From positions 248,001 to 312,000 of the forward strand of contig NZ_JAPEPJ010000002.1 in assembly GCF_026340255.1 (NCBI RefSeq): a stretch of DNA of 64,000 bases, given 5' to 3'. The stretch comes from Streptomyces sp. NBC_01408 (lineage in GTDB: Bacteria > Actinomycetota > Actinomycetes > Streptomycetales > Streptomycetaceae). Shown piece after piece: positions 14,245-50,914 of this stretch; the first letter of the stretch is position 1, and each line of letters begins with the position of its first letter. Made by a program: the position numbers and the translations under genes. The notes under the pieces were generated by a model. The model had not been told where the DNA came from, did no database searches, and was given only the letters and a program-made list of their open reading frames with translations.

Positions 14245-16833
14245 TCAGCCCCGCTCGCGGCGCAGGGCCGAGAGGAGGCCGTCGATCTCGTCGGACCTCA
14301 GCAGGACGTCGCGTGCCTTCTGGCCGTCGGACGGGCCGACCACGCCCCGGGACTCCAAGAGGTCCATGAGGCGGTGGGACTTGGCGTACCCCACGCGCAG
14401 CTTGCGCCGGATCATCGACGCGGAGCCGAACTGGGTGGAGACGACGAGTTCGGCCGCCTGGCAGAGGTGGTCGAGGTCCTCGCCGACTTCGGGGTGCACC
14501 CCGCGCCTCGCGGATCGTCCGGCCGGGAAGTCGTCCCGGTGGACGGGGTCCATCTGGCTCCGGCAGTGCCTCGCGACCGCCTCGATCTCCGCATCGGAGA
14601 CGAAGGCGCCCTGGAACCTGACCGGGTGGGCCGCCCCCATGGGCAGGAACAGCCCGTCGCCCTTGCCGGTCAGCGTGGAGGCGCCCGCCCAGCCCAGCCC
14701 GGCCGGACCGGCCACCGTCGAGTCCACCGCGAACCGCAGCTTCGACCGGAGTCCCGCGATCACGTGCGGCGTGAGGACGGCCTCGGTGGGCTGTTCGGTG
14801 GCGAGCACCAGGTGGATGCCGACCGTGTGGCCCAGCTGGGTGATCCGGGTGATCGCGGCTTCGGCGTCCGGCCGCGCGGCGGTCATCAGGCCGGCGAGCT
14901 CGTCGACGACCACCAGCAGGCTGGGGTAGGGGTGCGGCTCGCGGTCGCTGCCCGGTTCCGGTCTGAGGAGGTTGTCCCGGGCCGCCCGGTTGAACTCGTC
15001 GATGTGCCGGAAGCCGAAGGCGGCCAGGTCGTCGTAGCGCAGGTCCAGTTCGCGGACCGTCCAGCGCAGGGCTTCCACGGCACGCCGCGCATCGGTGACG
15101 ACCGGGGCGAGCAGGTGCGGGATGCCCTCGTAGGCGGCGAGGCGAACCCGCTTGGGGTCGACGAGGATCATGCGGACGTCTTCCGGGGTGGACCGCACCA
15201 TGACCGAGGTGATGAGCGAGTCGACGCAGGACGACCTTCCGGACCCGGGGCCGCCGACGATCAGGAGGTGCGGCATCCGGGCGAGGTCGGCGAGCACCGA
15301 TCCGCCCTCGACGTCCTTGCCGAGGCCCACCGTCAACGGGGCGTCCGCCTCGGTGGCGTCCGCGAGACGCAGGACGTCGCCCAGGTGGACCGTCTCGCGG
15401 TCGGCGTTCGGGATCTCGATGCCGATCGCCGGCTTGCCGGGGATGGGGCTGATGATCCGTACGTCCTGGCAGGCCACGGCGTAGGCGATGTTCTTGGTCA
15501 GCGCGGTGATCCGCTCCACGAAGACGCCCGGGCCGAGCTCGACCTCGTACCGGGTCACGGCGGGCCCCCGGCAGAAGCCGGTGACGCGCGCGTCGACCTC
15601 GAACTGGTCGAAGACGTGGTGGAGCGTCGCGATGGCGGCGTCGTTGGCGGGGCCGCGTCCCTTGTCCGGGGCGCCTCGTCCCAGCAGGTCCAGGGAGGGC
15701 AGGGCGTACGAGATGAGGCGCGGCCGCGGTTCTCCGGCCCGCGGCGGCGCGGGGGGCCGGATCTCGTCGAGGACGCACGTGGGCGCCGGGGCCGCCACGG
15801 GCTGCGTGGGGGCCGGGGCCGCCACAGGGTGCGTGGGCAGCGCCGGATACGGCGGGACGCCGGACAGCGGGGGCCGGTACGGGCGCGGCGTCGGCATGGA
15901 CATCGGCATCGGCGTCCGCAGTTGCGTCGGCGTCGGCACGGGCCGGGAGGGGCGGCGCAGCAGGCGTCGGGCCAGGCCCTCGAGCAGGCCCGGCGCGGCC
16001 AGGGCGAGGAGCCGGTCCCGCACCTCCGCGGCGCCCGGCGGCCGCCCCGCGGGGTCCTTGGCCAGGAGCGCGAGGATCAGCTCGTCCCAGGCCCCGGAAA
16101 GCCGGGGGTTGTACCGGCTCGGCGGCACCGGGGGCTCGGAGACGTGCTTGACGAGCAGGGCGACCCCGTTCGCGGCCATGAAGGGAGGGCGGCCGGTGAC
16201 CAGGTTGTAGAGGACACAGCCCAAGGAGTAGAGGTCGCTGCGGTGGTCGACCGTGAGCGCCTGGGCCTGTTCCGGGGACATGAAGGCGGGGGTGCCGATC
16301 GCGGCTCCGGTCGCGGTCAGTGCCGTCTGGGGCGCCGGGTCGTCGAGGAAGGAGGCGATGCCGAAGTCCAGCACCTTGGCGGTGCCGTCGGCCGTGACCA
16401 TCACGTTCGCCGGTTTGAGGTCGCGGTGCAGGACGCCGGCCCCGTGGACCGTCGCCAGGGCGTCGCACACCTGCGCCGTCCAGCGCGTGACGTCGTCCAG
16501 GCCCGGAGGGCCGTTGCTGATCACGAGGTCCAGGGGGTGCCCGGTGACCAGCTCCATCACGATGAAGAGCAGGGGGTGGTCGTCTTCGACGCTGGTGGAC
16601 CCGATGTCGTGGACGGTCACGATGTGCCGGCTCTGCAGTCCGGCGACGACCCTGGCTTCGCGCTCGAAACGCGCCGCGGCGTGCGCGTACCCCTCCCGCT
16701 GCCCGCCGGCCAGCGTCTTGACGGCGACCTCGCGGCCCAGTCTCTCGTCGTAGGCGCGCCAGACCTGGCCCATCCCGCCCGCGCCGATCAGACCGGCCAC
16801 GCGGTAGCGCCCGGCGATCCGTGTTCCCTGCAC
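14245..16833 (-). CDS. Ser/Thr protein kinase fused to FtsK/SpoIIIE-type DNA translocase
   Basis: An 862-residue fusion. Residues 1-about 270 are a Hanks-type kinase with G-loop GAGGMG, VAVK (Lys39), HRDLKPAN (136-143) and DFG (156-158), all expected residues present. A Pro/Met-rich linker follows (about 300-350). Residues from about 365 onward match the soluble FtsK translocase: the alpha domain ('VTRYEVELGPGVFVERITAL', 'PIPGKPAIGIEIPN'), the motor with Walker A 'GGPGSGRSS' near 533, Walker B 'VVVDELAG' near 643, 'GKGDGLFLP', and a winged-helix gamma domain at the end ('QFGSASMIRRKLRVGYA'). The invariant Walker A Lys is Arg. FtsK's N-terminal membrane segments are missing, the kinase taking their place. 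It may be a phospho-controlled, cytoplasmic DNA pump or DNA-binding ATPase. Divergent from the acyl-reductase operon. Confidence 0.9.
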   Translation of the reverse strand: MQGTRIAGRYRVAGLIGAGGMGQVWRAYDERLGREVAVKTLAGGQREGYAHAAARFEREARVVAGLQSRHIVTVHDIGSTSVEDDHPLLFIVMELVTGHPLDLVISNGPPGLDDVTRWTAQVCDALATVHGAGVLHRDLKPANVMVTADGTAKVLDFGIASFLDDPAPQTALTATGAAIGTPAFMSPEQAQALTVDHRSDLYSLGCVLYNLVTGRPPFMAANGVALLVKHVSEPPVPPSRYNPRLSGAWDELILALLAKDPAGRPPGAAEVRDRLLALAAPGLLEGLARRLLRRPSRPVPTPTQLRTPMPMSMPTPRPYRPPLSGVPPYPALPTHPVAAPAPTQPVAAPAPTCVLDEIRPPAPPRAGEPRPRLISYALPSLDLLGRGAPDKGRGPANDAAIATLHHVFDQFEVDARVTGFCRGPAVTRYEVELGPGVFVERITALTKNIAYAVACQDVRIISPIPGKPAIGIEIPNADRETVHLGDVLRLADATEADAPLTVGLGKDVEGGSVLADLARMPHLLIVGGPGSGRSSCVDSLITSVMVRSTPEDVRMILVDPKRVRLAAYEGIPHLLAPVVTDARRAVEALRWTVRELDLRYDDLAAFGFRHIDEFNRAARDNLLRPEPGSDREPHPYPSLLVVVDELAGLMTAARPDAEAAITRITQLGHTVGIHLVLATEQPTEAVLTPHVIAGLRSKLRFAVDSTVAGPAGLGWAGASTLTGKGDGLFLPMGAAHPVRFQGAFVSDAEIEAVARHCRSQMDPVHRDDFPAGRSARRGVHPEVGEDLDHLCQAAELVVSTQFGSASMIRRKLRVGYAKSHRLMDLLESRGVVGPSDGQKARDVLLRSDEIDGLLSALRRERG

Positions 16834-17218: not shown

Positions 17219-18502
17219 ATGTCCGCCCAGCAGCTCTCGGACCTCATACGTTTCGCCCGTCACAACTCACCCTTCTACCGGGACCTCTACGCGTCCCTGC
17301 CGCCGCACGCCGACCGCCTCACCGACCTGCCGGTGGTCGACCAACAGGAGTTCTGGGCGGCCAACTCCCTGCACGACAGCCGCGTACTGACCGGCCCGCT
17401 CAGCGAGGCCACGGTCTACAAGACCGGCGGCACCACCGGGGCTCCCAAGTTCTCCGTCTACACCCGCGACGAGTGGCGCACGTTCGTCACCTCCTTCGGC
17501 CAGGGACTCGTGGACGCCGGCCTGCGCCCGGGGCACCGCGTCGCCGACCTCTTCTACGCGGGGGAGCTGTACGCCAGCTTCCTCTTCGTCCTCGACTCGC
17601 TCGCCCACGCGCCCGTGGACAACGTCCGCCTGCCCATCGGCGGCGGCGCGCCGCTGGAGTCGACGATCCCCACGCTGCGCGACCTCGCCGCCCAGGTGGT
17701 GGCCGGCACGCCCACCACCCTGTGCCGGCTCGCCGAACAGGTCGTCGCGTCCGGTGTCCGGCTCGACTCGGTGGAACTGCTGCTCTTCGGCGGCGAGGCC
17801 CTCTTCGACGACCAGCGGCGCCTGCTGGCCACCGCGTTCCCCCGCGCCGAGGCCCGTTCCGTCGGGTACGCCAGCGTCGACGCCGGCCTGCTCGGCCGCC
17901 CCGTCCCCGGCTCGGATGCCCGGGTGCACCGGGCGTTCACCCCGTACTCGGTCGTCGAGATCCTCGACGACTCCACCGATGAGCCGGTCACCGAACCGGG
18001 CCGGCCCGGCCGGGTCGTCGTCACCAGCCTCTTCCGCCGCCTCATGCCGATCATCCGCTACCCCGCCGGCGACCGGGCCGAGTGGACCGGCACCGGGCCC
18101 GGACACTTCCGGATCCTCGGCCGCACCGAGGAGGGCGTACGGGTGGGGCCCGTCTCCCTCTACACCCAGGACGCCCAGGACGCCGTGGCCGCGGCGGACA
18201 CCGCCGGGCAGGTGGTGGGCATGCAGCTCGTCGTCCGCCGCTGGGACGGCCGCGACGGGCTCGTCCTGCGGCTGGCGACGGCCCCCGGTGACGCCGGCCG
18301 CGGCGCGGCCGCGGGCGGCCGGGAGGCGCTGGCCGAGGCCGTGGTCGCGGAGCTGGAGACCGTACGGCCGCTGTATCCGGACAGCGTGCGCGCCGGGTTC
18401 GTGCACCCGCTGTCCGTGGAGTGGGCGCGCCACCGCGACCTCGCCGTCAACCCGCGCTCGGGCAAGCTCGTCCGGGTCCTCGACGAGAGGCCGACCGCAT
18501 GA
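17219..18502 (+). CDS. PaaK-like adenylate-forming enzyme (operon gene 1)
   Basis: A 427-residue member of the phenylacetate-CoA ligase (PaaK) branch of adenylate-forming enzymes. The AMP/phosphate loop reads 'YKTGGTTGAPKFSVYT' (about residues 63-78), followed by 'LFYAGELYASFLFVLDSL' and 'FGGEALFDDQRRLL'. It should activate a carboxylic acid as acyl-AMP and pass it to CoA, a carrier or an enzyme. It resembles the C-terminal half of the last operon protein (22153), so they share ancestry. Only a weak AAAGG precedes the ATG. The stop overlaps the next start (ATGA). Confidence 0.88.
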   Translation: MSAQQLSDLIRFARHNSPFYRDLYASLPPHADRLTDLPVVDQQEFWAANSLHDSRVLTGPLSEATVYKTGGTTGAPKFSVYTRDEWRTFVTSFGQGLVDAGLRPGHRVADLFYAGELYASFLFVLDSLAHAPVDNVRLPIGGGAPLESTIPTLRDLAAQVVAGTPTTLCRLAEQVVASGVRLDSVELLLFGGEALFDDQRRLLATAFPRAEARSVGYASVDAGLLGRPVPGSDARVHRAFTPYSVVEILDDSTDEPVTEPGRPGRVVVTSLFRRLMPIIRYPAGDRAEWTGTGPGHFRILGRTEEGVRVGPVSLYTQDAQDAVAAADTAGQVVGMQLVVRRWDGRDGLVLRLATAPGDAGRGAAAGGREALAEAVVAELETVRPLYPDSVRAGFVHPLSVEWARHRDLAVNPRSGKLVRVLDERPTA

Positions 18503-19806
18503 CCGCCGCACCCGTTGCCGCAGCCGTGGCCGTGGCCGAAGAGGAGGCCGAAGCCCGCGCCGCGGCCGGCGGCCGGCGCGCTCCGCTGATCCTGCGCAAC
18601 CGCGCCTTCGCCGCCGTATGGCTCGGCCAGGTCCTCACCCAGGCCGCCGTCCGCATGTTCCAGGTCGGCGTGTCCTGGTGGATCGTCGCCTACGCCGTGC
18701 GCGTCGCCCCCGGTCTGGCCTCCGGGCTGTTCATGGCGGCCTGCACGCTGCCCGCCGTGGCGCTGGCGCCCGTCGTGGCCGGGGCCGTCGCCCGGTTCGC
18801 CCACCGTTCGGTCCTGCGGACCGCCGCCGGCCTGGCCGGGGCCGCCTCGTGCGCCCTCGCCCTGTGGGCGTACGGCGGCGGCCTGCCGGTCGCCGCCGTG
18901 TACGCCGCCGCTCTCGGCCTGGCCACCTGCCAGGCGTTCTTCGACCCCTGCCTGACCACCTCGGTGCCCGAGCTGGTCGACGACGCCGACATCGAGACGG
19001 CCACCGGCTTCGAACTGTCCACCCAGTCCCTGGCCGGGCTCGGCGGAGCGCTGCTCGGCGCCCTGACCGTCGACCGGGCCGGTGTGGCGGGGCTGGCCGC
19101 CGGCTGCGCGGCCGCCTACCTCGGCGCCGCCCTCCTCGTCGCGAGCGCCCGCTTCCGCACCGCCGCGGCCCCGACGACCTGCGCGTCCGGCCCGGCGGCC
19201 GCCGTGCCCCAGCGGCGCACGCTCCGCCGCATCCTCGGCGAACTGCCCTACGTGCGGCGGATCCTGATCTGCTTCACCGCGGCGAACCTGTTCACCACCG
19301 CCGTGTTCGTCGTCATCCCCCTCTACACCCGCTCGGTCCTCCTGGGCGGTGGCGGCACCGTGGCGCTGCTGGAGGCCTCCCTGGGCGCCGGTGCGCTCAT
19401 CGGCGCCTTCACCGGCACCCGCGTGCCGGGGCGGCCCACGGTCGCCGGCGCCTACTGCCTGGGCCTGATGGCCCTCGCCCTGGCGCTGCCCGGGCTGGTC
19501 TCGCACCGCCTGGCCGTCGCGGGCTGCCTGGCCGTGGCCGGCTGGTGCGCCGGGGCCGTCAGCGTCCGCTTCGTGGCCCTCTTCCAGCGGCTGGTGCCGA
19601 CGGCGGACAAACCCGGCTTCTTCGCCGTGATGCAGGCCGTACTGGGCGCCTCCCTGCCCGTGGCGTCCCTGGTGTTCGGCTCCGCCGGGGACTACCTCTC
19701 GCCCCAGACGCTGTGCCTGGTGCAGGGCCTCGGCCTGGTCCCCGCCGCCTGGGCGCTGGCCCTGCTCGGATCCCGTACGCCCGAACCCGTGGGAGGCGAA
19801 CGGTGA
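18499..19806 (+). CDS. MFS transporter (operon gene 2)
   Basis: A 435-residue membrane protein of about 12 segments, starting with a cytoplasmic Ala/Glu-rich tail and 'LRNRAFAAVWLGQVLTQAA', which is typical of the enterobactin-exporter-like MFS group. The start ATG overlaps the stop of the previous gene by four bases, and its own stop overlaps the next start (GTGA). In an operon of acyl-activating and reducing enzymes an exporter of the final product, possibly a self-resistance role, is the likeliest job. Substrate unknown. Confidence 0.9.
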   Translation: MTAAPVAAAVAVAEEEAEARAAAGGRRAPLILRNRAFAAVWLGQVLTQAAVRMFQVGVSWWIVAYAVRVAPGLASGLFMAACTLPAVALAPVVAGAVARFAHRSVLRTAAGLAGAASCALALWAYGGGLPVAAVYAAALGLATCQAFFDPCLTTSVPELVDDADIETATGFELSTQSLAGLGGALLGALTVDRAGVAGLAAGCAAAYLGAALLVASARFRTAAAPTTCASGPAAAVPQRRTLRRILGELPYVRRILICFTAANLFTTAVFVVIPLYTRSVLLGGGGTVALLEASLGAGALIGAFTGTRVPGRPTVAGAYCLGLMALALALPGLVSHRLAVAGCLAVAGWCAGAVSVRFVALFQRLVPTADKPGFFAVMQAVLGASLPVASLVFGSAGDYLSPQTLCLVQGLGLVPAAWALALLGSRTPEPVGGER

Positions 19807-20948
19807 GGCCCGTCATCACCCCGGCCGACTGCGCGGACATCGCCGAACTGCGCCAGCTCTACTACGCCGTCTACGGGCCGCACTACCCCGTGGCCCTCGG
19901 CACCGACCCGGCCGAGATGGCCCGCCTCATCGCGGACCCGCACTCCCTGTGGCTCGTCGGCCGCTGCCCCGACACCGGGGCCCTGACCGGGTCCGCCGCC
20001 ATCCACGGCGAGGCGGGCAGTCGCATCGGCCGCCTGGAGGGCATCGCCGTACACCCCGGGCACCGCTCGACGGGCCTGGCAGCCGCCCTGACCGGGGCGT
20101 TGTGCGCCGGGATGCTGGACACGGGGCGGCTGGACTCGGTGTACGCGACCGTACGGACCGTCAGCGCCGGTCCGCAGCGCGTCGTCGCGCGCAACGGCTT
20201 CCGCCCGCTGGGCGTCCTGCCCAACGCGGTGGATCTCCGCAGCCGCGAGAGCCTCGCGCTCTACGCGCGTCACTCCGCCGGTGTGCTCGACCGCCGGATG
20301 CCCGTCACCGAAGTGCCCGCCCCGCTGCTGCCGTTGCTGCGCACCGCCGAGGCCGCGCTCGGCATCGGCTACCCCGGGGTCCGGGCCGCCGACGCCCCGC
20401 CGCCGACGCCCGTGCCGCAAGGGGCCGTCGAGCGGCTGGAGATGATCGAGGCGCCGGCCTTCGTGCGCCGCCGCTTCCGCGAGCGGTTCCCCGGCGCCGA
20501 GGGCTGGTTCTACCCGCTGCACACCCCGAACGTGCTGCTCACCCCGGAGGACGGCCGGTTCGAGGTCTACGCGTACCTCAACCGGGCCGGCGGGTACTGC
20601 TCCCTGCTGACCGCCCACCCCGACCCGGCCGCCGCGGCCGCGTACCTCGAACCCGTCACCCGGGCCCTGGCCCGCGCGGGCGCCGGCTACGTCGAGGCCC
20701 TGGTGCCGCTCGACCACCAGGAGGCCCTCTCGGCCTTCCTCGCCCAGGGGTTCGTGGCCGGCGCCCTCTATCCCGCGATGCGCGCGGACGGCGACGGGTT
20801 CCACGACTACGCCGTCCTGTCCCGTTCCAGCGAGCGGATCGACTTCCGCGGCGTCGCCGTCGAACCGCCCCTCCAGCCCTATCTGGACTGCTACGTGTCG
20901 GCCTGGGCGTCGACGCACCTGCCCACTTCATCCGAGGTTGCCTCATGA
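19803..20948 (+). CDS. Tandem-GNAT acetyltransferase (operon gene 3)
   Basis: A 381-residue protein that seems to contain two GNAT folds. The first (about residues 1-150) has the acyl-CoA loop 'EGIAVHPGHRSTGLAAALT' and 'VVARNGFRPLGVLP'. The second (about 220-370, 'GGYCSLLTAHPDP', 'ALVPLDHQEALSAFLAQGF') is degenerate. GNAT enzymes move an acyl group from acyl-CoA to an amine. Here it could acylate the amine arising from the aldehyde produced by the neighbours, or load a substrate. GTG start inside the preceding stop; the stop overlaps the next ATG (ATGA). Confidence 0.8.
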   Translation: MRPVITPADCADIAELRQLYYAVYGPHYPVALGTDPAEMARLIADPHSLWLVGRCPDTGALTGSAAIHGEAGSRIGRLEGIAVHPGHRSTGLAAALTGALCAGMLDTGRLDSVYATVRTVSAGPQRVVARNGFRPLGVLPNAVDLRSRESLALYARHSAGVLDRRMPVTEVPAPLLPLLRTAEAALGIGYPGVRAADAPPPTPVPQGAVERLEMIEAPAFVRRRFRERFPGAEGWFYPLHTPNVLLTPEDGRFEVYAYLNRAGGYCSLLTAHPDPAAAAAYLEPVTRALARAGAGYVEALVPLDHQEALSAFLAQGFVAGALYPAMRADGDGFHDYAVLSRSSERIDFRGVAVEPPLQPYLDCYVSAWASTHLPTSSEVAS

Positions 20949-22156
20949 GCCCCACTGATCCCGCGAATGCCGTGAATGCCGTGAATGCGGTGAATCCCGT
21001 GCCCCCCATGAACCCCCATCTCGCGCCGGTCGCCGTACCCGACCCGGCCCTCCTGCCCCACGTACAACAGCTGTGCGACCTGACCGACCCCTACGCCTGC
21101 GGGCCCGCGGAGGACGAACTGTTCGCCGCCGCCATGGCGGAGACCAACGCCTGGCACACCGAGCGCTCCCCGTTCTTCCGCTCCCTGTACGAGGCCACTC
21201 CCCCGGCGGAGCCGTACCGCACCCCGCTCGTCCACGCGAACTTCTTCAAGCGGCACGAGGTGCTCTCCGTCCCGCGCGAGGACGTCGAGCTGCACCTGAC
21301 CTCCTCCGGCACCACCGGCCAGAAGTCGCAGATGTTCTTCGACCACTGGACCATCCGCTCCGCCCAGCGCATGGTCGCCCGGATCTTCGAGCGCAACGGC
21401 TGGATCACCCCCGACCAGGAGGTCAACTACCTCCTGTACAGCTACGAACCGGCCCCCTCCCTGAACCTCGGGACCGCCTTCACCGACAACTACCTGTGCG
21501 ACTTCGCCCCGGCGCGCAGCGTCGAGTACGCGCTGCGCAACACCGGCGGCGACCACGAGTTCGACCCCTTCGGCTGCATCGCGGCGCTGCGCCGCTTCGA
21601 GCGGGAGGACGCCCCGGTCCGCATCCTCGGCTTCCCCGCCTTCCTCTTCTTCACCCTGGAGCGGATGCGGGCCATGGGACTGCCGCCGCTGCGCCTGCCC
21701 GAGGGCTCCCTCGTCGTCCTCGGCGGCGGCTGGAAGGGGCACGCCGACCGGCGCATCGGCAAGGAGGAGCTGTACGCGCGCGTCACCGAGCAGCTCGGCA
21801 TCCCGGGTGAGCGGATCCGGGACACCTTCGGGTCGGTGGAGCACTGCATCCCGTACATCGAGTGCGACCACCACCGGCTGCACGCCCCCGTCTGGTCCCG
21901 GGTGACGATCCGCTCCACCCGCACGCTCGAACCCCTGCCGTACGGGGAGCGGGGCTACCTGCACCTCGTGTCGCCGTACATCACCTCGGTGCCGGCGCAG
22001 AGCGTGGTCATGGGCGACCTCGCCTCCCTCCAGCCGGGCGACGCCTGCGGGTGCGAGCTCCGGACCCCCTGGTTCACCGTGCACGGCCGTGCCGGAGTGA
22101 GCCGCAACCGCAGCTGCGCGGTGGCCGCAGCGGAACTGATGAAGGGCATGGCGTGA
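20945..22156 (+). CDS. LuxE-like acyl-protein synthetase (operon gene 4)
   Basis: A 403-residue LuxE-type acyl-protein synthetase. The signature loop 'LTSSGTTGQKSQMFFD' lies near residue 118, followed by 'GGGWKGHADRRIGKEEL' and 'DTFGSVEHCIPYIECDHH', all characteristic of the LuxE group. LuxE activates a fatty acid as acyl-AMP and transfers the acyl group to a Ser/Cys of the fatty-acid reductase complex. The N-terminus has a run NAV NAV NAV NPV from a 9-bp tandem repeat. The start overlaps the preceding stop; the stop overlaps the GTG of the reductase gene. Confidence 0.88.
   Translation: MSPTDPANAVNAVNAVNPVPPMNPHLAPVAVPDPALLPHVQQLCDLTDPYACGPAEDELFAAAMAETNAWHTERSPFFRSLYEATPPAEPYRTPLVHANFFKRHEVLSVPREDVELHLTSSGTTGQKSQMFFDHWTIRSAQRMVARIFERNGWITPDQEVNYLLYSYEPAPSLNLGTAFTDNYLCDFAPARSVEYALRNTGGDHEFDPFGCIAALRRFEREDAPVRILGFPAFLFFTLERMRAMGLPPLRLPEGSLVVLGGGWKGHADRRIGKEELYARVTEQLGIPGERIRDTFGSVEHCIPYIECDHHRLHAPVWSRVTIRSTRTLEPLPYGERGYLHLVSPYITSVPAQSVVMGDLASLQPGDACGCELRTPWFTVHGRAGVSRNRSCAVAAAELMKGMA
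20966..21001 (+). repeat. Four 9-bp tandem repeats at the start of the LuxE-like gene
   Basis: AATGCCGTG repeats four times with small changes, giving NAVNAVNAVNPV in the protein. Slippage here would change only N-terminal length in units of three residues. Confidence 0.85.
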
Positions 22157-24714
22157 CCGTGACGGAGACCAAGGCCGCGTACGACCTGCCCGGCGACGAC
22201 GCCGCGCACCACTACTGGCAGGGCGCCTTCATCGGCGACGAGGAGGCCGGGCGCCGCCTCGCCGGCCTGCCGGCCGCCGTGGAGGCCGCCTTGGCCACGG
22301 TGCTGGAGACCGAGACCGTCCTGGCCGCCTGCGACGCCCTCGCCACCGCCCTGCGCGACCCGGCCCACCCGGTGCGCGCCCGGCTCGCCGCGCACCTGCC
22401 CGAGGGGGAGGACCCGGAGGTCCTGGCCGAGCTCGGGGGCCTCCTCGGCCGGCGCGAGCTGACCCGCAAGCTGCGCCGGGAACTCGGCAGCGCGACGCCC
22501 GGCCGGCTGGACCGGGCCGATCCGCGCGAGACGGTCTACGAGGCGTGGGCGCCCGTCGGCCTGGTCGCCCACATCGCCCCGGGCAACGCCGCGACGGTCG
22601 CCCCGCTGAGCATCGTCGAGGGCCTGCTGGCCGGGAACGTCAACATCCTCAAGACCAGCAGCGCCGACACCCTGCTGACCCAGCACCTGATGGCGGAGCT
22701 CGCGGCCCTGGACCCCAGCGGCGCACTGGCCGCGCGGGTCCTCGTGCTGCGCTTCCCGTCCTCCCGGCAGGAGTGGCTGCGCCTGATGTGCGCGCCCGCG
22801 GACGCCGTCGCCGTATGGGGCGGGGAGGGCGCCGTCGAGGGGGTGGCGGCCCATGTGCCGGCCGGGTGCCGGCTGGTGGAGTGGGGGCACCGGATCTCCT
22901 TTGCGTACCTGACGCGCGACGCCTGGTCGGAGGCCGGCACGCTCGACGCCCTGGCCGACGACGTGTGCCTGTACGAGCAGCAGGCGTGTTCCAGCCCGCA
23001 GGTGGTCTACCTCGACACGGAGGACGAGGCCGAGGTGTTCGCCTTCGCCGAGCGGTTCGCCGCCGTGCTCGCGGCCCGGCCGCCGGCCGTGACCGCCGTT
23101 TCTGCGGGCGGGACGGGCGAGCCGGATCCCGCCGGGGAGGCCGAGCTGACCACCACCGAGCTGGTGGCCCGGCTGGAGGAACACCTGGGCCTGACCCGGG
23201 TGTTCGCCGCGCCCGACGGCTCGTGGCGGGTCATGGCCGACACCCGGTCCCCGCTCACCGCCTCGCCGCTGCACCGCAGCGTGTGGGTCAAGCCGCTGCC
23301 CCGCAAGCGGCTGATCGCCACCCTGCGCCCGATGCGCCGCTACCTGCAGACGGCGGGCCTCGCGGGCAGCCGGACCGACATCGCCGAGCTGTCCCGCACC
23401 GCCCTGGCCGCGGGCGTCACCCGTGTCACGCCGGTCGGCGCCATGCTGGAGAGCTACGCGGGCGAGCCGCACGACGGCGTCTATGCCCTGCAGCGCTACA
23501 GCCGCCGCGTCGCGGTCCAGGCGGACCCGGCCCGCTTCGCCACGACCGCCTGCCTGGACGACCTGGCCCGGCCCGTGGTGCTGCCGCCGCCGGCGGGCCC
23601 GCTGCTGGGCAAGGAGGACGTGCAGGAGCCGGCCCGGGAGCTGGCGCGGGCCGATGCCGAGCTGTACTTCCGCAGCGGCGGCAGCACGGGCGCGCCGGCG
23701 CTGTCGGTCTTCAGTTACGACGACTACGACACCCAGATGCACGCCGCCGCGCGGGGCCTGCTCGCCGCCGGCTACGACCCGGTCGGGGACCGCACCGCGA
23801 ACCTCTTCTACTGCGGCGGCATGTACGGCAGTTTCATCAGCTTCTTCTCCGTGCTGGAACGGCTCGGCGGGGTGCAGCTGCCGCTGTCCGCGGGCCCTGA
23901 CCACCGGGCGACGGCCCAGGCCCTCATCGACCACGGGGCCGACACCCTCTTCGGAATGCCCTCCTACCTGTGGCAGCTGCTGCACGCGGAGGCGGACGCG
24001 CTGCGCGCGTACGGAGGCCTGCGGAAGGTCTTCTACGGCGGTGAGCACTTCACGCAGGAGCAGCAGCGCACGCTGAAGGACACGTTCGGCATCGAGGCCG
24101 TCCGCTCGATCACCTACGGCAGCACCGACCTCGGCCCGCTGGGCTACCAGTGCACCGAGAGCTCCGGCGGGGTCCACCACCTGCACGCCGACCTCCACAC
24201 GATGGAGATCGTGGACCTGGCCGAGGACCGGCCGGTGGCCCCGGGCGACACGGGCCGGCTGGTCTTCACCACGCACGCCCGGCGCGGCCAGCACCTGGGC
24301 CGGTACGTGATAGGCGACCTGGGCCGGGAGGTCCCGGGCCGCTGCCCCTGCGGCCGGCACGCGCCGCGCTTCGAGCTGAGGGGACGCACCGGTGACGTGA
24401 TGCGGGTGGCGACGTACTTCCTCAACCACCGCCGCTTCCTGGCCCTGGCCGAGGAACGGGGCGGCCACCGCGGCGAGTTGCAGATCCGGCTCGACGGTAC
24501 GGACGCGCGCGAGCGGCTGACCGTACGGGTGGAGCGGGCCGGGGCGCCGGACCCGCAGCGGCTGCGGGAGGTGTTCCTGACCGGTTACCCGGAACTCCGC
24601 TCGGCGGTGACGGAGCAGTTGCTGGACCTGGTGGTCGAGCCGGTCGACGGCGCGTCACTGGACCGCAGCCCGACGAGCGGCAAGCTCCTCGCGGTGGTGG
24701 ACGCGCGCCGCTAG
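22153..24714 (+). CDS. LuxC-like acyl reductase fused to a PaaK-like adenylation domain (operon gene 5)
   Basis: An 853-residue bifunctional protein. Residues 1-about 430 match LuxC acyl-CoA reductase, with 'APVGLVAHIAPGNAATVAP' and the catalytic Cys279 in 'EQQACSSPQ', which in LuxC forms the acyl-thioester reduced by NADPH to an aldehyde. From about 440 the chain is a PaaK-like adenylation domain ('FRSGGSTGAPALSVFSYDD' near 505, 'FYGGEHFTQEQQR', 'SITYGSTDLGPLGY'), ending with the Lys-bearing tail 'DRSPTSGKLLAV'. Activation and reduction are thus joined in one chain. The start overlaps the LuxE-like stop (GTGA). Stop TAG lies in CTAGTGCTG, the end sequence of the MITE-like element. Confidence 0.88.
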   Translation: MTVTETKAAYDLPGDDAAHHYWQGAFIGDEEAGRRLAGLPAAVEAALATVLETETVLAACDALATALRDPAHPVRARLAAHLPEGEDPEVLAELGGLLGRRELTRKLRRELGSATPGRLDRADPRETVYEAWAPVGLVAHIAPGNAATVAPLSIVEGLLAGNVNILKTSSADTLLTQHLMAELAALDPSGALAARVLVLRFPSSRQEWLRLMCAPADAVAVWGGEGAVEGVAAHVPAGCRLVEWGHRISFAYLTRDAWSEAGTLDALADDVCLYEQQACSSPQVVYLDTEDEAEVFAFAERFAAVLAARPPAVTAVSAGGTGEPDPAGEAELTTTELVARLEEHLGLTRVFAAPDGSWRVMADTRSPLTASPLHRSVWVKPLPRKRLIATLRPMRRYLQTAGLAGSRTDIAELSRTALAAGVTRVTPVGAMLESYAGEPHDGVYALQRYSRRVAVQADPARFATTACLDDLARPVVLPPPAGPLLGKEDVQEPARELARADAELYFRSGGSTGAPALSVFSYDDYDTQMHAAARGLLAAGYDPVGDRTANLFYCGGMYGSFISFFSVLERLGGVQLPLSAGPDHRATAQALIDHGADTLFGMPSYLWQLLHAEADALRAYGGLRKVFYGGEHFTQEQQRTLKDTFGIEAVRSITYGSTDLGPLGYQCTESSGGVHHLHADLHTMEIVDLAEDRPVAPGDTGRLVFTTHARRGQHLGRYVIGDLGREVPGRCPCGRHAPRFELRGRTGDVMRVATYFLNHRRFLALAEERGGHRGELQIRLDGTDARERLTVRVERAGAPDPQRLREVFLTGYPELRSAVTEQLLDLVVEPVDGASLDRSPTSGKLLAVVDARR

Positions 24715-24728: not shown

Positions 24729-24776
24729 GGGGGACGGTCCGGTCCTGGTCCGCGGACCAGGACCGGACCGTCCCCC
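24729..24776. terminator. 48-bp perfect palindrome, bidirectional terminator
   Basis: A perfect inverted repeat with 24-bp arms runs from GGGGG at 24729 to CCCCC at 24776. It lies between the end of the acyl-reductase operon (+) and the end of the methyltransferase-like gene (-), and can stop transcription from both sides. Confidence 0.85.
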
Positions 24777-24779
24777 GTC

Positions 24780-25706
24780 TCAGGCGTCGCGCAGGAGGGC
24801 CGGGAGCGCAAGGGCCGTGGTCTCGTGTGCGGGCCGTGAGAGGTGGAACGCGGTGTGGTAGTAGCCGTCGGACTCCTTGCCGCGGGGGTCCTCGCCGGCG
24901 GCGGTCACGGCGTCGACGGCGTGCTGCTGCTCGTGCGCGCTCGTGAAACGGCGTTGCCGGTACGTGGGGGCCGGCGCCTTCTCCGTGACCAGCCCGAGGG
25001 AGGTCAGTCCGTCGGCGATGGGCTGGTAGGAGCCGGTGCGCAGGACGAACGCCGCGACCCACACCTGTCGCTGGGCGGCGGAGAGGAGCGGTCGGAAGGT
25101 GCGGGGGGACAGGAAGCTGACGCCGCCGGTGACGGTGATCAGCCCCACCCCCTGGGCGGCCTTGAGGAGAGCGGCGCTGGGGGGATCCTCTTCCAGGTTC
25201 TCGGCGAACCCCTCGTCCAGCAGGCCGACGGCGAGCGCGTAGCCGATGGCGTTGGCGGCCTGATCGAGTCCGATCACCCGCACGGCGTCGGGGCGTCGGT
25301 GGGCCGCGTAGAAGGCCCGGTCCCGTTCGATGAGCTCTGCCGTGGTGAGTGCCGCCGCCTGCGGCGAGGTGTAGTGGGCGGACAGCTGTTCCAGGGTCAG
25401 GTCGTGGTTGAGAAGGGCCGCGTTGATGCCGTACGAGCAGCAGATGTCCAGTACCGCGAGCGGTTCGGCGCCGTCGGCCCGCGTGCGGGCCGCGGCCAGG
25501 CGGCGGAACACCCCCTGCGCGTGGTGCGGCGCCTGGTACTCCCAGCGGCCGAGGTCGCGGAAGAAGTCCCTGGGATCGGGCCGGTCGTAGATCTGGTCGA
25601 ACGAAGTCATCTTCCCCTGGCCGGGAGCGGCGGCCCGGTCCCCGCCCTCGCCGGTCACCACGCCGGCCGCCTCGCCGCTCTCGCCCGTGCTCCCCGGATG
25701 GGTCAT
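24780..25706 (-). CDS. Class I SAM methyltransferase-like protein
   Basis: A 308-residue protein whose centre shows the methyltransferase nucleotide-binding loop in a modified form 'VLDICCSYGINAALLNHDL' followed by an acidic strand 'RVIGLDQAANAIGYA'. An N-terminal extension of about 40 residues is Gly/Glu-rich. The C-terminal part is beta-rich with a 'SDGYYHTAFHLSRP' segment. Methyl acceptor unknown. Start at 25706 chosen for a strong AGGAGGAGG box. It shares only the terminator with the acyl-reductase operon, so it may or may not serve that pathway. Confidence 0.65.
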   Translation of the reverse strand: MTHPGSTGESGEAAGVVTGEGGDRAAAPGQGKMTSFDQIYDRPDPRDFFRDLGRWEYQAPHHAQGVFRRLAAARTRADGAEPLAVLDICCSYGINAALLNHDLTLEQLSAHYTSPQAAALTTAELIERDRAFYAAHRRPDAVRVIGLDQAANAIGYALAVGLLDEGFAENLEEDPPSAALLKAAQGVGLITVTGGVSFLSPRTFRPLLSAAQRQVWVAAFVLRTGSYQPIADGLTSLGLVTEKAPAPTYRQRRFTSAHEQQHAVDAVTAAGEDPRGKESDGYYHTAFHLSRPAHETTALALPALLRDA

Positions 25707-25802
25707 CGCATCCCGCCCTCCTCCTGAGCCAACGCGTCCGGTCAAGCAATAGCCGCTGACCGTCGTGCGGGGAAGACGGCACCGGCGAAACCCGGCCACG
25801 GA

Positions 25803-47185: not shown

Positions 47186-49345
47186 ATGGACGCGGCGGGG
47201 GCGGAGCGCATGACGGCGGAGACAGCACACAGGTGGGCGGCGACCCTCGATTCGGTCGTGGTGTACGCACAGGGCGCGGTCTGCCGCCGCCTGGCCCGGG
47301 GCAGCGTGCCGCCCGACGGCCGGGTGCGGGTGACGGGACTGCCCCGCTCGCTGGACCCGGGCTCGCTGCGGGCCCGGGTCCTGGGCTCCCCCGGGGTACG
47401 CGTCACCGAGGCCCGGGTGGAAGTCGAGGCCGAGCCGCGCGGCGCGGGCACGCCCGACGCGTTGCGGCGCGAGGTCGAGCGGCTGCGGGACGCCTACGCG
47501 GCGGCGCAGGGCCGACGGGACCGACAGCTGAGCCTGATCGAGGAAGTCAGGGCGCTCCGCCCGGTCCCACCCGCCCGCAGGCGCGAGGACCCGCACCGCC
47601 GCACCCCGGTCGACGCGTGGCTGGAGCTCTCCGGTTTCGTCGACGAGCGGCTGACCGGACTGCACACCCGCCTCGTCGGGCTGGAGGAGGCACTGCGCGA
47701 AGTCGAGCACGAGCTCACCGTCGCCGCCGACCGGCTCGCCCGCGCCTCCACCGACGCACCGTCAGCGCACGTGGACACCACGGTCTGCGCGGTCCTGACC
47801 CTCGACGGCACCGGCACCGGCACGGGTTCCGCTGAGGCGGAGACCGAGGTGGAGGTGGAGCTGGAGTACGGGGTGCCGGGCGCCGTCTGGGTGCCGGCCT
47901 ATCGGCTCACGCACCGTCAGGGCGACGGCAGCGGCCGTCTGGTGCTGCGCGCCTCGGTCGCCCAGCGGACCGGCGAGGACTGGACCGGGGTGCGCATCGC
48001 CCTGGCCACCGCCGACCTTCGGCGCCGCACCGACCTGCCGAAGCTCCGCTCGATCCGGATCGGACGCCGTCAGCCCGCCCCCGCGCCTTCCGGCTGGCGC
48101 GAGCCGCCCGCGGGGCTCGCCGACCTGTTCGCCGGGTACGAGGCAGCCGGCCCCGGACCTGCCGCGTCCGCGGCGACCGCCGCACCTGCCGTCGGCGCTG
48201 CCCGCCCCGCTCCCGTGGCCGCCGTGGGCGGCCCCGTTCCGCCGCCTCCCCCGCCGCCGCCGGCGCAGGCCTACGGCGGTCCGCCGCCCGCGTTCCTGAT
48301 GCCCGGCGGCGCGGACGGCCGCTCCACGGAGGTCTTCGGCAGCGGGATGTCCGGCGTCACGCAGGCCGTCCCCTCACGACCGGGCGCCAGGCCGCGTACC
48401 GGCGCCGGCGGCTTCGCCGGGGCCCCCGCCGCCGGGGCCCCCGTCCCCATGGCCCCTGCGGCTCCCGGCCGGGCTGCGCCGCCGCCCCCTCCGCCGCCGG
48501 TAACGGGTCCGCCGCAGCCGAGCGGCGCCGAGCTGGACTACGCCGCCCTCGTCCTGTGCGGCCCCGACGAGCAGGGCGGTCGCCGGGGCCGGCTGTTCCC
48601 CGACTCCCCCTTCGACCCGGTGGCGGCCGAGTACCGCCGTCGCGCCGAAGCGGTGGCCGGGCTGCCGCTGCCCGGACAGGCCGTGCGGCCCCGCGAGTCG
48701 GCCGGATCGTTCGACCACCGCTTCGATGCCACGGCCCGCGCCGACATTCCGTCGGACGGCACCTGGCACACCGTCACCGTTGGCGAGATCCCGGTCGGCC
48801 TGCGCACCGAGTACCTCTGCGTGCCGTCCGTGGAGCAGACCGTGTACGCGACGTTGGTGCTCTCCAACGCCACCGACCAGGCGCTGCTGGCCGGCCCGGT
48901 GGAGGTCACCGTCGACGACGAGTTCCTGCTGACCGCAGCCCTGCCCACGCTCGCGCCCGGCGGTGTCCGCCGGGTGGGGCTCGGGCCCGCCGAGGGCATC
49001 CGGGTCACCCGCCGTACGAACCTGCGCGAGTCGACCTCGGGCCTGCGCAACAACACCACCGTGCTCGACCACCGCGTCCACGTGGAGCTGGCCAACCGGC
49101 TCGCGCGGCCCGTCACCGTCGAGGTCCGCGAGCGGGTGCCGGTCACCTCCGAACCGGACGTCCGGATCGAGGAACGGGCCGACTGGACGGCACCCGAGGA
49201 AGGCGCGGGGCCCGAGCACCATGCCCCGGGCACCCGTGTCTGGCGGCTGGACCTGCCCGCAGGCGCCACCGCCGCCCTCGACGGCGGCTACGAGATCCGC
49301 ATCCCGACCGGCAAGGCCCTGGTCGACGGCAACCGCAGGAGCTGA
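47186..49345 (+). CDS. MuiA-family (DUF4140/DUF4139) protein 1
   Basis: A 719-residue protein. N-terminal DUF4140 ('VVYAQGAVCRRLARG', 'GLPRSLDPGSLR'), a coiled-coil stretch (about 95-175), the beta-rich DUF4139 body (from 'YGVPGAVWVPAYRL'), interrupted by a Gly/Pro/Ala-rich insertion with PPPPPPPP runs (about 320-445). MuiA-like proteins are described as mucoidy inhibitors, mechanism unknown. Start at 47186 supported by a TAGGCT box at leaderless distance; the ATG at 47210 has a closer GGAG. The gene overlaps in theme with its neighbour and forms an operon with it (6-nt gap). Confidence 0.85.
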   Translation: MDAAGAERMTAETAHRWAATLDSVVVYAQGAVCRRLARGSVPPDGRVRVTGLPRSLDPGSLRARVLGSPGVRVTEARVEVEAEPRGAGTPDALRREVERLRDAYAAAQGRRDRQLSLIEEVRALRPVPPARRREDPHRRTPVDAWLELSGFVDERLTGLHTRLVGLEEALREVEHELTVAADRLARASTDAPSAHVDTTVCAVLTLDGTGTGTGSAEAETEVEVELEYGVPGAVWVPAYRLTHRQGDGSGRLVLRASVAQRTGEDWTGVRIALATADLRRRTDLPKLRSIRIGRRQPAPAPSGWREPPAGLADLFAGYEAAGPGPAASAATAAPAVGAARPAPVAAVGGPVPPPPPPPPAQAYGGPPPAFLMPGGADGRSTEVFGSGMSGVTQAVPSRPGARPRTGAGGFAGAPAAGAPVPMAPAAPGRAAPPPPPPPVTGPPQPSGAELDYAALVLCGPDEQGGRRGRLFPDSPFDPVAAEYRRRAEAVAGLPLPGQAVRPRESAGSFDHRFDATARADIPSDGTWHTVTVGEIPVGLRTEYLCVPSVEQTVYATLVLSNATDQALLAGPVEVTVDDEFLLTAALPTLAPGGVRRVGLGPAEGIRVTRRTNLRESTSGLRNNTTVLDHRVHVELANRLARPVTVEVRERVPVTSEPDVRIEERADWTAPEEGAGPEHHAPGTRVWRLDLPAGATAALDGGYEIRIPTGKALVDGNRRS

Positions 49346-49351
49346 CCCGCC

Positions 49352-50914
49352 ATGTCCACGGCCCCGAAGCCGATCGCCCTCCCCGTCACCGCCGTCACCT
49401 GCCTGGAGGACCGCGCCCACGTCGAGCGCACCGCCGTACTCGACCTGGAGGCGGGGGTCCAGCGGCTGCGTCTCGGGCCGGTCAGCGCCCTGGCCGTCGA
49501 CCGGACCCTCCATGCCGAGCTGACCGCCGCTTCCCCCGCGACCGTGCTCGACGTGCGGATCGTCCGCAGCTGGACGCCGCGCGGGCCGCTGCCGTCCGCC
49601 GAGGACGACTCCGCCCTGCGCCACCGCGTGCACGCCCTCGAAGAGGAGCAACTGGCCCTGGAGCAGCGACGCGACCGGCTCAACGCCCGCCTTGACCTGC
49701 TCGGCCGCCTCGCCGCCGATCTGCTGCGGGACATCGGCGAAGGCGCCGGCTGCGGGGAGCCCGATCGGACCCGCTGGGCCCTCGAACTGGACCGGGTGGA
49801 CGGCGAGCGCGACACGTACGGTGAGCAACTCCGCACGGTGCAGGCCCGGCTGGCCGCCCTCGCCGCCGAACTCGGGGAAAGCCAGCGGGCCATGTCGCTG
49901 TCGGAGGACGAGCCCGCCGAGCTGATCGGCCACATCGAGCTGACCGTGGAGGCCGCGGCCGCCGGGCCGGCCGAGCTGCGCCTGAGCCACCTCACCCCGT
50001 GCGCGCTGTGGCGGCCCGCCTACCGGGCCGTGCTCGACGGGGACGCCCTGACGCTGGAGACCGACGCGATGGTCTGGCAGCGGACCGGCGAGGACTGGTC
50101 GGACGTACGGCTGACCTTGTCGACCGCGCGCTCGGCGCTGGCCACCGATCCGCCCCGGCTGGGCGAGGACCGGCTGACGCTCAAGGACCGCTCCGCGGCG
50201 GAGCGCCGGACGGTCGACGTAGAGCTGCGCGAGGAGGAGATCGGGACCCTCGGCCCGGCGCCGGTACTCGGCCTTCCGGGGGTGGACGACGGCGGCGAGG
50301 CGCGCGTGCTGACCTCCCCCGCGCCGGTCTCCGTGCGCGGGGACGGCCGCGCCCACCGGGTGCCGCTCTCCGTGTCCACCACGGCCGCGAGCAGCGAGTA
50401 CGCCTGCGCACCCGAGGTGTCGCCGCTGGTCACCCAGGTGGTCCGGTTCGACAACCTGTCCGGTCACGCGCTGCTCGCCGGGCCTGTGGACCTGGTCCGC
50501 GGCAGCGGGTTCAGCGGCCGGGGCACGCTGGACTTCACCGCCCCCGGCGCCCCCGTCGAGCTCGCCTTCGGCAGCTGCGACGACCACGGGGTGGTCCGGG
50601 AGGCCCAGGAGTCCCGCGAATCCGCCGGGATCATGCAGCGGACCGTGGTCACCCGCACGGTCCGGCTGCACCTGTCCCGGTTCTCAGCCCCCGGGGAGCA
50701 CGACGACCGGGTGGTCGTCCTGCGGGAGCGGATCCCGGTGTCCGAGGTCTCGGCGGTGGAGGTACGCCTGCGCAAGGACGCCTGCTCCCCGGCGCCCGAG
50801 GTGGTCGACGCCGAAGGCATCGTCCGCTGGGACATCACCCTGCCGCCCGGCGGCCGCCGCACGGTCACCCTGGTGTACGAGCTGTCGGCGAGCGCGAAGG
50901 TCGCCGGGCTCTGA
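49352..50914 (+). CDS. MuiA-family (DUF4139) protein 2
   Basis: A 520-residue protein of the same family as its upstream neighbour. N-terminal 'ITCLEDRAHVERTAVLDL'-like DUF4140 region, a coiled coil of about 80 residues ('LEEEQLALEQRRDRLNARL'), then DUF4139 ('LSHLTPCALWRPAYRAVL', 'ADGRAHRVPL'-like segments). It lacks the Pro-rich insertion. The 6-nt gap from the first paralogue and their likely heteromeric coiled coils suggest they form a complex. Confidence 0.85.
   Translation: MSTAPKPIALPVTAVTCLEDRAHVERTAVLDLEAGVQRLRLGPVSALAVDRTLHAELTAASPATVLDVRIVRSWTPRGPLPSAEDDSALRHRVHALEEEQLALEQRRDRLNARLDLLGRLAADLLRDIGEGAGCGEPDRTRWALELDRVDGERDTYGEQLRTVQARLAALAAELGESQRAMSLSEDEPAELIGHIELTVEAAAAGPAELRLSHLTPCALWRPAYRAVLDGDALTLETDAMVWQRTGEDWSDVRLTLSTARSALATDPPRLGEDRLTLKDRSAAERRTVDVELREEEIGTLGPAPVLGLPGVDDGGEARVLTSPAPVSVRGDGRAHRVPLSVSTTAASSEYACAPEVSPLVTQVVRFDNLSGHALLAGPVDLVRGSGFSGRGTLDFTAPGAPVELAFGSCDDHGVVREAQESRESAGIMQRTVVTRTVRLHLSRFSAPGEHDDRVVVLRERIPVSEVSAVEVRLRKDACSPAPEVVDAEGIVRWDITLPPGGRRTVTLVYELSASAKVAGL

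Follow-up and report, generated by a model that had tools for sequence, protein, structure and literature searches.

A five-gene operon in Streptomyces sp. NBC_01408 as a probable actinobacterial counterpart of the leupeptin (leup) operon

Organization and products of the five genes

A stretch of 64,000 nucleotides of the genome of Streptomyces sp. NBC_01408 (contig NZ_JAPEPJ010000002.1, positions 248,001 to 312,000; here called the window) has a Streptomyces-like G+C content of 73.7% and carries an operon of five genes, designated A to E, on the plus strand between positions 17219 and 24714. The genes are joined by four 4-nt overlaps, which read ATGA, GTGA, ATGA, and GTGA in sequence, as an earlier inspection of the letters without database searches (the sequence-only reading) had described. 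The set encodes a stand-alone PaaK-like ligase, an MFS transporter, a tandem GNAT acyltransferase, a LuxE-type acyl-protein synthetase, and a LuxC acyl reductase fused to a second PaaK-like ligase. It very probably constitutes an actinobacterial leup-type operon whose product would be an N-acyl dipeptidyl argininal, with leupeptin (acetyl-Leu-Leu-argininal) and its usual congeners as the likeliest compounds. Leupeptin is a widely used protease inhibitor and a standard laboratory reagent.

The domain make-up proposed from the letters, with three adenylating modules, one LuxC, one tandem GNAT, and one MFS protein, agrees with Pfam and NCBIfam searches and with an AlphaFold2 (AF2) model of C. Protein A scores 28.1 bits with PF00501, slightly below the cut-off of 29.9 bits, and matches NCBIfam PaaK-type models with E values of 1e-19 to 8e-13, far under the cut-offs of those models. 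MFS_1 is found in B with 51 bits, and LuxE (PF04443) is found in D with 81.6 bits. The Pfam GNAT match of C is limited to the first half of the protein, and its AF2 model (mean predicted local distance difference test [pLDDT] score, 81.5) contains two GNAT domains, with the tandem GNAT 2wpw as the top Foldseek match at a whole-chain template modeling (TM) score of only about 0.4. For E, the AF2 model has a mean pLDDT of 80.5, with weak stretches in the linker and in part of the ligase domain; it matches LuxC chain 7xc6_A and PaaK-type ligase structures, and the Foldseek ligase matches include PaaK1/2, NatL2, and AjiA1. ClxA, AjiA1, and NatL2, all among the ligase structures matched by E, are presumably adenylating enzymes of natural-product pathways. 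Condensation, carrier, and nonribosomal peptide synthetase (NRPS) reductase domains were not found in the five operon proteins by the Pfam scan.

The presumed catalytic residues are conserved. Cys279 of E, named as catalytic in the sequence-only reading, is invariant in all 31 aligned fusions, and Lys844 in the SGKL motif of the PaaK-like domain is likewise invariant in 31 of 31. Lys416 of A (SGK/TGK motif) is invariant in 11 of 11 aligned sequences, and Cys391 of D is invariant in 14 of 14. The structural counterparts of the two cysteines, Cys364 of LuxE and the LuxC cysteine of 7xc6, are taken here to be acyl-carrying residues. The absence of luciferase genes had also been claimed, and a Pfam scan of 30 window proteins, a subset of the window genes, indeed gave no match to the Bac_luciferase family; in the genomes of five relatives, the luciferase family is too common to be informative.

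Table 1. Positions of the operon genes, domains, catalytic codons, and adjoining palindrome in the window
Feature	Position	Strand	Description	Remarks
Gene A	17219-18502	+	Stand-alone PaaK-like adenylating ligase, 427 amino acids (aa)	Probable counterpart of published leupC, as judged from the order and length of leupC
Gene B	18499-19806	+	MFS transporter, 435 aa; presumed exporter	ATGA overlap with A
Gene C	19803-20948	+	Tandem GNAT acyltransferase, 381 aa; GTG start	GTGA overlap with B
Gene D	20945-22156	+	LuxE-type acyl-protein synthetase, 403 aa; ATG start	ATGA overlap with C
Gene E	22153-24714	+	LuxC acyl reductase fused to PaaK-like ligase, 853 aa; GTG start, TAG stop	GTGA overlap with D; counterpart of published leupB
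LuxC domain of E, residues 52-451	22306-23505	+	PF05893, 296.7 bits
PaaK-like adenylating domain of E, about residues 494-852	23632-24708	+	PF00501, 38.9 bits over residues 494-706
Cys279 codon, LuxC domain of E	22987-22989	+	QQAC motif; presumed acyl-accepting residue	Aligns with Cys of 7xc6_A
Cys391 codon of D	22115-22117	+		Aligns with Cys364 of LuxE chain 7xc6_E (profile alignment)
Palindrome	24729-24776		Perfect 24-bp inverted repeat (48-bp palindrome), no loop	Between E and the convergent next gene

Distribution of the operon and its likeness to leupABCD

Searches of genome contigs with E as the query retrieved 44 loci, 39 of which carry the order A-B-C-D-E on one strand. This order, for which the sequence-only reading had proposed a search, is far beyond chance. 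The 39 ordered loci include two with genes split into pieces (L038 and L043) and one that ends inside E (L019). The remaining five comprise two loci cut by contig ends (L012 and L028), two without the MFS gene (L016 and L017), and a rearranged locus from Crossiella (L041), in which A and B lie on the opposite strand about 8 kb off. In the MFS-less copies of S. lavendofoliae (L016, 6815-6871) and S. noursei B-3066 (L017, 7637-7693), about 55 bp separate the match to A from the match to C. Across the ordered loci, E is 75 to 93% identical to that of the window, and the identity is about 62 to 66% in other loci; a protein of S. xanthophaeus, P0001, is 96% identical to it over the full length. Operon copies also occur on three plasmid records (L046, L047, and L048).

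Among 295 Streptomyces genomes sampled around a known operon carrier (G001), E has matches in 36: a near full-length fusion is present in 33 of these, the LuxC part alone in one (G008), and the PaaK part alone in two. D has matches in 34, namely, the same 33 fusion genomes and G008, and C has matches in the same 33. The LuxE, fusion, and GNAT genes thus occur together in 33 of 33 genomes, and G008 is the only other genome with part of this set. A second Streptomyces form was found in 12 of 14 fetched regions (L087 to L097 and L100), in which C-D-E is followed by a stand-alone A, with no match to B; A faces E in nine of them and lies downstream on the same strand in three, and the LuxC and PaaK parts of the fusion are 56 to 65% and 51 to 56% identical, respectively, to those of the window's E. 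L053 and L054 represent a form for which no A was found in the fetched stretch.

The link to leup runs through enterobacterial copies. A plasmid search with E revealed two Salmonella enterica plasmids that carry the fusion at 36 to 38% identity. The locus on plasmid CP054717 encodes an acyl-protein synthase, an AMP-binding fusion, a phenylacetate--CoA ligase (PaaK), and a GNAT; the annotated GNAT is present in one of the two plasmid loci, and L066 is without it. The Salmonella set is that of the window without a recognized transporter. In BLASTP comparisons with the Salmonella copy, D is 54% identical over 372 aa, A is 40% identical over 425 aa, and E is 37% identical over 828 aa. When the Salmonella fusion and PaaK were used as queries, E and A of the operon, respectively, were the best matches in five of five genomes, and an hhalign profile comparison of the first GNAT domain of C with the Salmonella GNAT gave 93% with an E value of 3e-7. 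Upstream of the Salmonella LuxE gene, there is a 121-aa protein (L045, 10212-10577; L066, 6212-6577) that by eye resembles the start of a membrane transporter. Its reading as part of an MFS protein is unsupported, with no Pfam family found in the L045 copy.

Among the homologues of the Salmonella fusion (120 listed of 526), many are Klebsiella michiganensis proteins. The leup locus of Klebsiella CAV1374, consisting of a transporter and leupABCD, occupies positions 315353 to 321183 (about 5.8 kb), and primers for it have been published (PMC8283571). The reverse complement of the leupB_r primer from that paper reads EQLKDH in one frame. In the K. michiganensis fusion P0138, EQLKDHA is found at codon 47, and 66 of the 120 fusions among the matches listed contain it, all of them within the 71 proteins from P0136 to P0206 (66/71). 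Because the leupB_r frame is found in the Klebsiella fusions, the published leupB corresponds to the LuxC-PaaK fusion gene. By arithmetic from the coordinates of primers leupA_f and leupB_r, leupB starts near position 316482, so that leupA would span about 1.08 kb, a length that suits a LuxE gene, and this spacing points to gene D as the likely counterpart of leupA. The rest of the Klebsiella interval after leupA and leupB fits a PaaK and a GNAT gene. The leupA_f and leupB_r primers have no match in the Salmonella locus (7 and 6 mismatches at best, respectively), which is not surprising at 66% protein identity.

The features of leup recur in the window. A LuxE-type gene is followed directly by a LuxC-PaaK fusion gene (D and E), a stand-alone PaaK-like ligase of the same family is present (A), a transporter gene is adjacent, being the MFS gene B inside the operon with a likeness by class, and the five proteins contain no NRPS modules according to Pfam. 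In K. oxytoca, leup yields leupeptin and its Lys analogue (PMC11480411), and a summary of Li et al. 2020 states that separate AMP-dependent ligases form the amide bonds of leupeptin and a reductase makes the aldehyde (PMC11212599). The sequence-only reading regarded the operon as an uncharacterized pathway, which it very probably is not; the gene set matches leupABCD for leupeptin, and leup is a known pathway that would explain the operon.

Reports of leupeptin producers are consistent with this assignment. The description of leupeptin from actinomycetes dates from 1969 (title of a reference in PMC11212599). Producers named in the literature are S. lavendulae and S. roseus (PMC8546846) and S. 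cattleya RLe1 (PMC5511137), and S. virginiae THA-960 is a tentative one, identified by mass alone (PMC13273461). Copies of the operon were found in S. virginiae (L004) and on plasmid pSCAT of Streptantibioticus cattleyicolor (L046), and the fusion is present at the protein level in S. lavendulae (P0006, P0030, and P0031). Streptantibioticus cattleyicolor is presumably the former S. cattleya. According to the title of a paper by Umezawa in 1978 (reference in PMC8546846), leupeptin production was transferred by conjugation in S. roseus, which the plasmid-borne operon copies fit.

Several points weigh against the leup assignment. C is weakly similar to the Salmonella GNAT (25.5% identity over 137 aa, under half of the protein), and the latter as a query retrieved the operon's C in one of five genomes, faintly and ranked below another protein. 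The best-match tests were one-directional, with Salmonella proteins searched against five genomes. The gene order A-B-C-D-E differs from the gammaproteobacterial order LuxE-fusion-PaaK-GNAT, and gene B is missing from 2 of the 44 loci. The comparison with leup was made through the Salmonella copy and the primers, and Li et al. 2020 is known via citing papers. The producer matches are at the species level, the reported producers being different from the sequenced strains, and they cover S. virginiae, S. cattleyicolor, and S. lavendulae. In addition, leupeptin of Streptomyces has been listed with NRPS products or clusters (PMC10548850; PMC11212599).

The kind of system is known. An assignment of this operon to Streptomyces leupeptin was not found in print in searches limited to open-licence papers of PubMed Central, and actinobacterial homologues may already be noted in Li et al. 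2020. The papers found place Streptomyces leupeptin biosynthesis with NRPS clusters or cite the gammaproteobacterial operon only. The operon, present in about one in nine of the sampled Streptomyces genomes (33 of 295) and sometimes on plasmids, is a concrete candidate for leupeptin biosynthesis. As a way of making peptide aldehydes it is compact and needs no NRPS, and genome mining could look for it.

Proposed pathway and competing readings

To make leupeptin, three carboxyl groups must be activated, one acetyl group added, and one group reduced, and the three adenylating modules, one acetyltransferase, and one reductase of the operon fit these requirements. Early enzymological work reportedly described an enzyme that forms acetyl-leucine, a synthetase for leupeptin acid, and a reductase of leupeptin acid that depends on ATP and NADPH. 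In the proposed pathway, C, the presumed leucine N-acetyltransferase and by class the counterpart of leupD, would move an acetyl (or propionyl) group from coenzyme A onto leucine (step 1). The PaaK-like modules, namely, A and the C-terminal domain of E, would adenylate Ac-Leu and then Ac-Leu-Leu, and the adenylates would be attacked by Leu and then Arg to give Ac-Leu-Leu-Arg (steps 2 and 3). D, the presumed activator of the tripeptide acid, would adenylate it in the LuxE manner, load it onto Cys391, and pass it on to Cys279 in the LuxC part of E; this LuxC domain would then use NAD(P)H to convert the thioester into the aldehyde (step 4), and B would export the product (step 5). Of the earlier proposal that an aldehyde is formed and then acylated and exported, the aldehyde-forming, acylating, and exporting functions stand; the acyl group is most likely added at the start, by N-acetylation of leucine, and not to the aldehyde.

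The assignment of ligases to bonds draws on three loci in which an unfused LuxC lies beside LuxE (L065, L103, and L060/L104). In the fetched stretches of these loci, the PaaK (both queries), GNAT, and MFS proteins of the window have no match at an E value of 1e-3; L065 carries an annotated MFS gene of its own. Because LuxE and unfused LuxC occur there with no PaaK matches, LuxE may be regarded as the partner of LuxC, which suggests that both PaaK modules serve peptide bond formation. Alternatively, the fused ligase domain would feed its own LuxC domain. The sequence-only reading held that the fusion means coupled activation and reduction, and this conclusion is not sustained, since the fused PaaK need not feed the neighboring LuxC.

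Other products have to be weighed. The operon may belong to the leup family and yet make mainly another short N-acyl peptide aldehyde, differing in the acyl group, the residues, or the terminal amino acid, which is unlikely but far from negligible. The Lys analogue from Klebsiella leup and the homoarginine form of the derived pyrazinone from Photorhabdus and Xenorhabdus leup (PMC11480411) accord with it, as do the strepin P1, leupeptin Pr-LL, and Val variants annotated in Streptomyces and in a strain written K. cystarginea (PMC5511137). Specificity may also differ among the several Streptomyces operon forms (E of 75 to 93%, about 62 to 66%, or, with another gene order, 51 to 65% identity), and A and E are just 40 and 37% identical to the Salmonella proteins. 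Against such a product stand the species that carry the close operon form or the fusion and are reported leupeptin producers, although in other strains (S. virginiae and S. lavendulae).

A much less probable reading is that the operon reduces an aryl or other small carboxylic acid in the manner of GriC/GriD, in which case the fused PaaK would supply LuxC and the remaining genes would modify the aldehyde. GriC/GriD of grixazone biosynthesis is a two-protein carboxylic acid reductase with a PaaK/F390-synthetase-like ligase that acts on an aryl acid and is not known to involve a LuxE. The presence of LuxC and a PaaK-like domain in one chain, which would couple activation to reduction, and the frequent use of aryl acids by PaaK-type ligases, as suggested by the Foldseek matches PaaK1/2, NatL2, and AjiA1, speak for this reading, whereas the nearest whole-operon match is leup, such a reductase would have no need of a separate LuxE that keeps a conserved cysteine, and the flanks vary between loci. 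A GriC/GriD-type reductase was rejected because no aryl acid biosynthesis genes were found among the 30 scanned window proteins.

A fatty-aldehyde operon of the LuxC/LuxE style or a lux remnant, despite the LuxC and LuxE Pfam families and the match of D and E to the P. phosphoreum LuxC-LuxE complex 7xc6, is hardly credible and was rejected, since the NCBIfam models for true LuxE (66 of 550 bits) and true LuxC (69.9 of 750 bits) score far below their cut-offs, a GNAT and two further ligase modules are found with the pair at almost every operon locus seen, and no luciferase family is present in the 30 proteins scanned.

Unfused LuxE/LuxC pairs, surroundings, and known systems

The operon points to peptide C termini as likely targets of the LuxE/LuxC pairs that occur outside luminous bacteria. 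The unfused pair at L065 lies on the S. europaeiscabiei plasmid NZ_CP109155.1 (10439-13259) and is followed by a 53-aa open reading frame (ORF). A YcaO/nitroreductase-type gene on the other strand is followed by MBL-fold, DUF692, LuxE, and LuxC genes; the DUF692 protein belongs to Pfam MbnB_TglH_ChrH, a family that modifies precursors of ribosomally synthesized and post-translationally modified peptides (RiPPs). The LuxE of L065 is 50% identical to D and 68% identical to those of other unfused pairs, and its LuxC is 45% identical to the LuxC part of E. The 53-aa ORF is located 80 bases after LuxC, has by eye a plausible ribosome-binding site, and encodes four (D/N)(D/E)FPFR repeats, each ending in Arg, with four different codons for the four arginines. 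None of 20,000 composition shuffles contained any 4-mer four times.

The 53-aa peptide looks like a multicore RiPP precursor for peptide argininals. It is conceivable, if rather doubtful, that the LuxE/LuxC half of the operon is one branch of a general bacterial module that turns peptide C termini into aldehydes and that was also recruited, at L065, for ribosomal, trimmed, and reduced leupeptin-like argininals; this idea rests on one locus, L065. Unfused LuxC relatives at 53 to 57% identity form 19 further protein clusters, 18 of which are named Streptomyces, in a search that admits proteins of up to about 800 aa. Two-gene LuxE/LuxC units were observed in Streptomyces at L103 (9288-11878; genome G650) and L104 (6146-8721; genome G008). 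No repeat precursor was found beside the pairs of L060/L104 and L103, the context being seen in 2 of 392 genomes, and the fetched stretches of L103 and L104 have no match to the L065 YcaO or to the PaaK, GNAT, and MFS proteins of the window.

The operon appears to be a unit of its own. Eight flanking genes of the window were searched across the 44 loci, and none is a constant neighbor; the idea that the operon is part of a larger cluster was rejected, with flank gene dn1_24780 present in 0 of 44 loci and the up3 esterase only in L006. The next gene (24780-25799) is convergent to E and has no Pfam match. The palindrome between them, with an RNA fold of -58.8 kcal/mol and a z score of -7.0, is likely a two-way terminator; scans for T-run terminators and sigma-70 promoters scored none. 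Elsewhere in the window, a Ser/Thr kinase and FtsK alpha, motor, and gamma domains (Pfam) are joined in one 862-aa chain on the minus strand (14245-16833), which looks unusual, and two adjacent DUF4140-DUF4139 proteins are encoded in tandem at 47186-50914.

Among known systems, the LuxC/LuxE of luminous bacteria (7xc6) shares with the operon the LuxE and LuxC folds, the aligned conserved cysteines, and the presumed hand-over of an acyl thioester. The window differs in having no luciferase in the scanned proteins, a LuxC fused to a ligase, and a peptide acid as the likely substrate. GriC/GriD resembles the operon in a reductase that works with a PaaK/F390-synthetase-like ligase and differs in having two separate proteins, an aryl acid substrate, and no known LuxE. 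NRPS-made peptide aldehydes of the antipain, MAPI, and flavopeptin type belong to the same compound class of peptide aldehyde protease inhibitors, whereas the five proteins of the window contain no condensation, carrier, or NRPS reductase domain. The livipeptin cluster of S. lividans is likewise a small Streptomyces route to a presumed leupeptin-like aldehyde, but it uses a tRNA-utilizing enzyme and a C-minus NRPS, not LuxE, LuxC, and PaaK (PMC10548850). The closest system is gammaproteobacterial leupABCD (Klebsiella oxytoca/michiganensis, Photorhabdus, and Xenorhabdus), which, as described in citing papers, shares the LuxE ligase beside a LuxC-PaaK fusion, the stand-alone PaaK, the GNAT, the adjacent transporter, and the compact stand-alone unit. 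The operon of the window differs from it in being actinobacterial, in having the PaaK and MFS genes first, a tandem and weakly similar GNAT, and four tight overlaps, and its D, E, and A proteins are 37 to 54% identical to those of the Salmonella copy.

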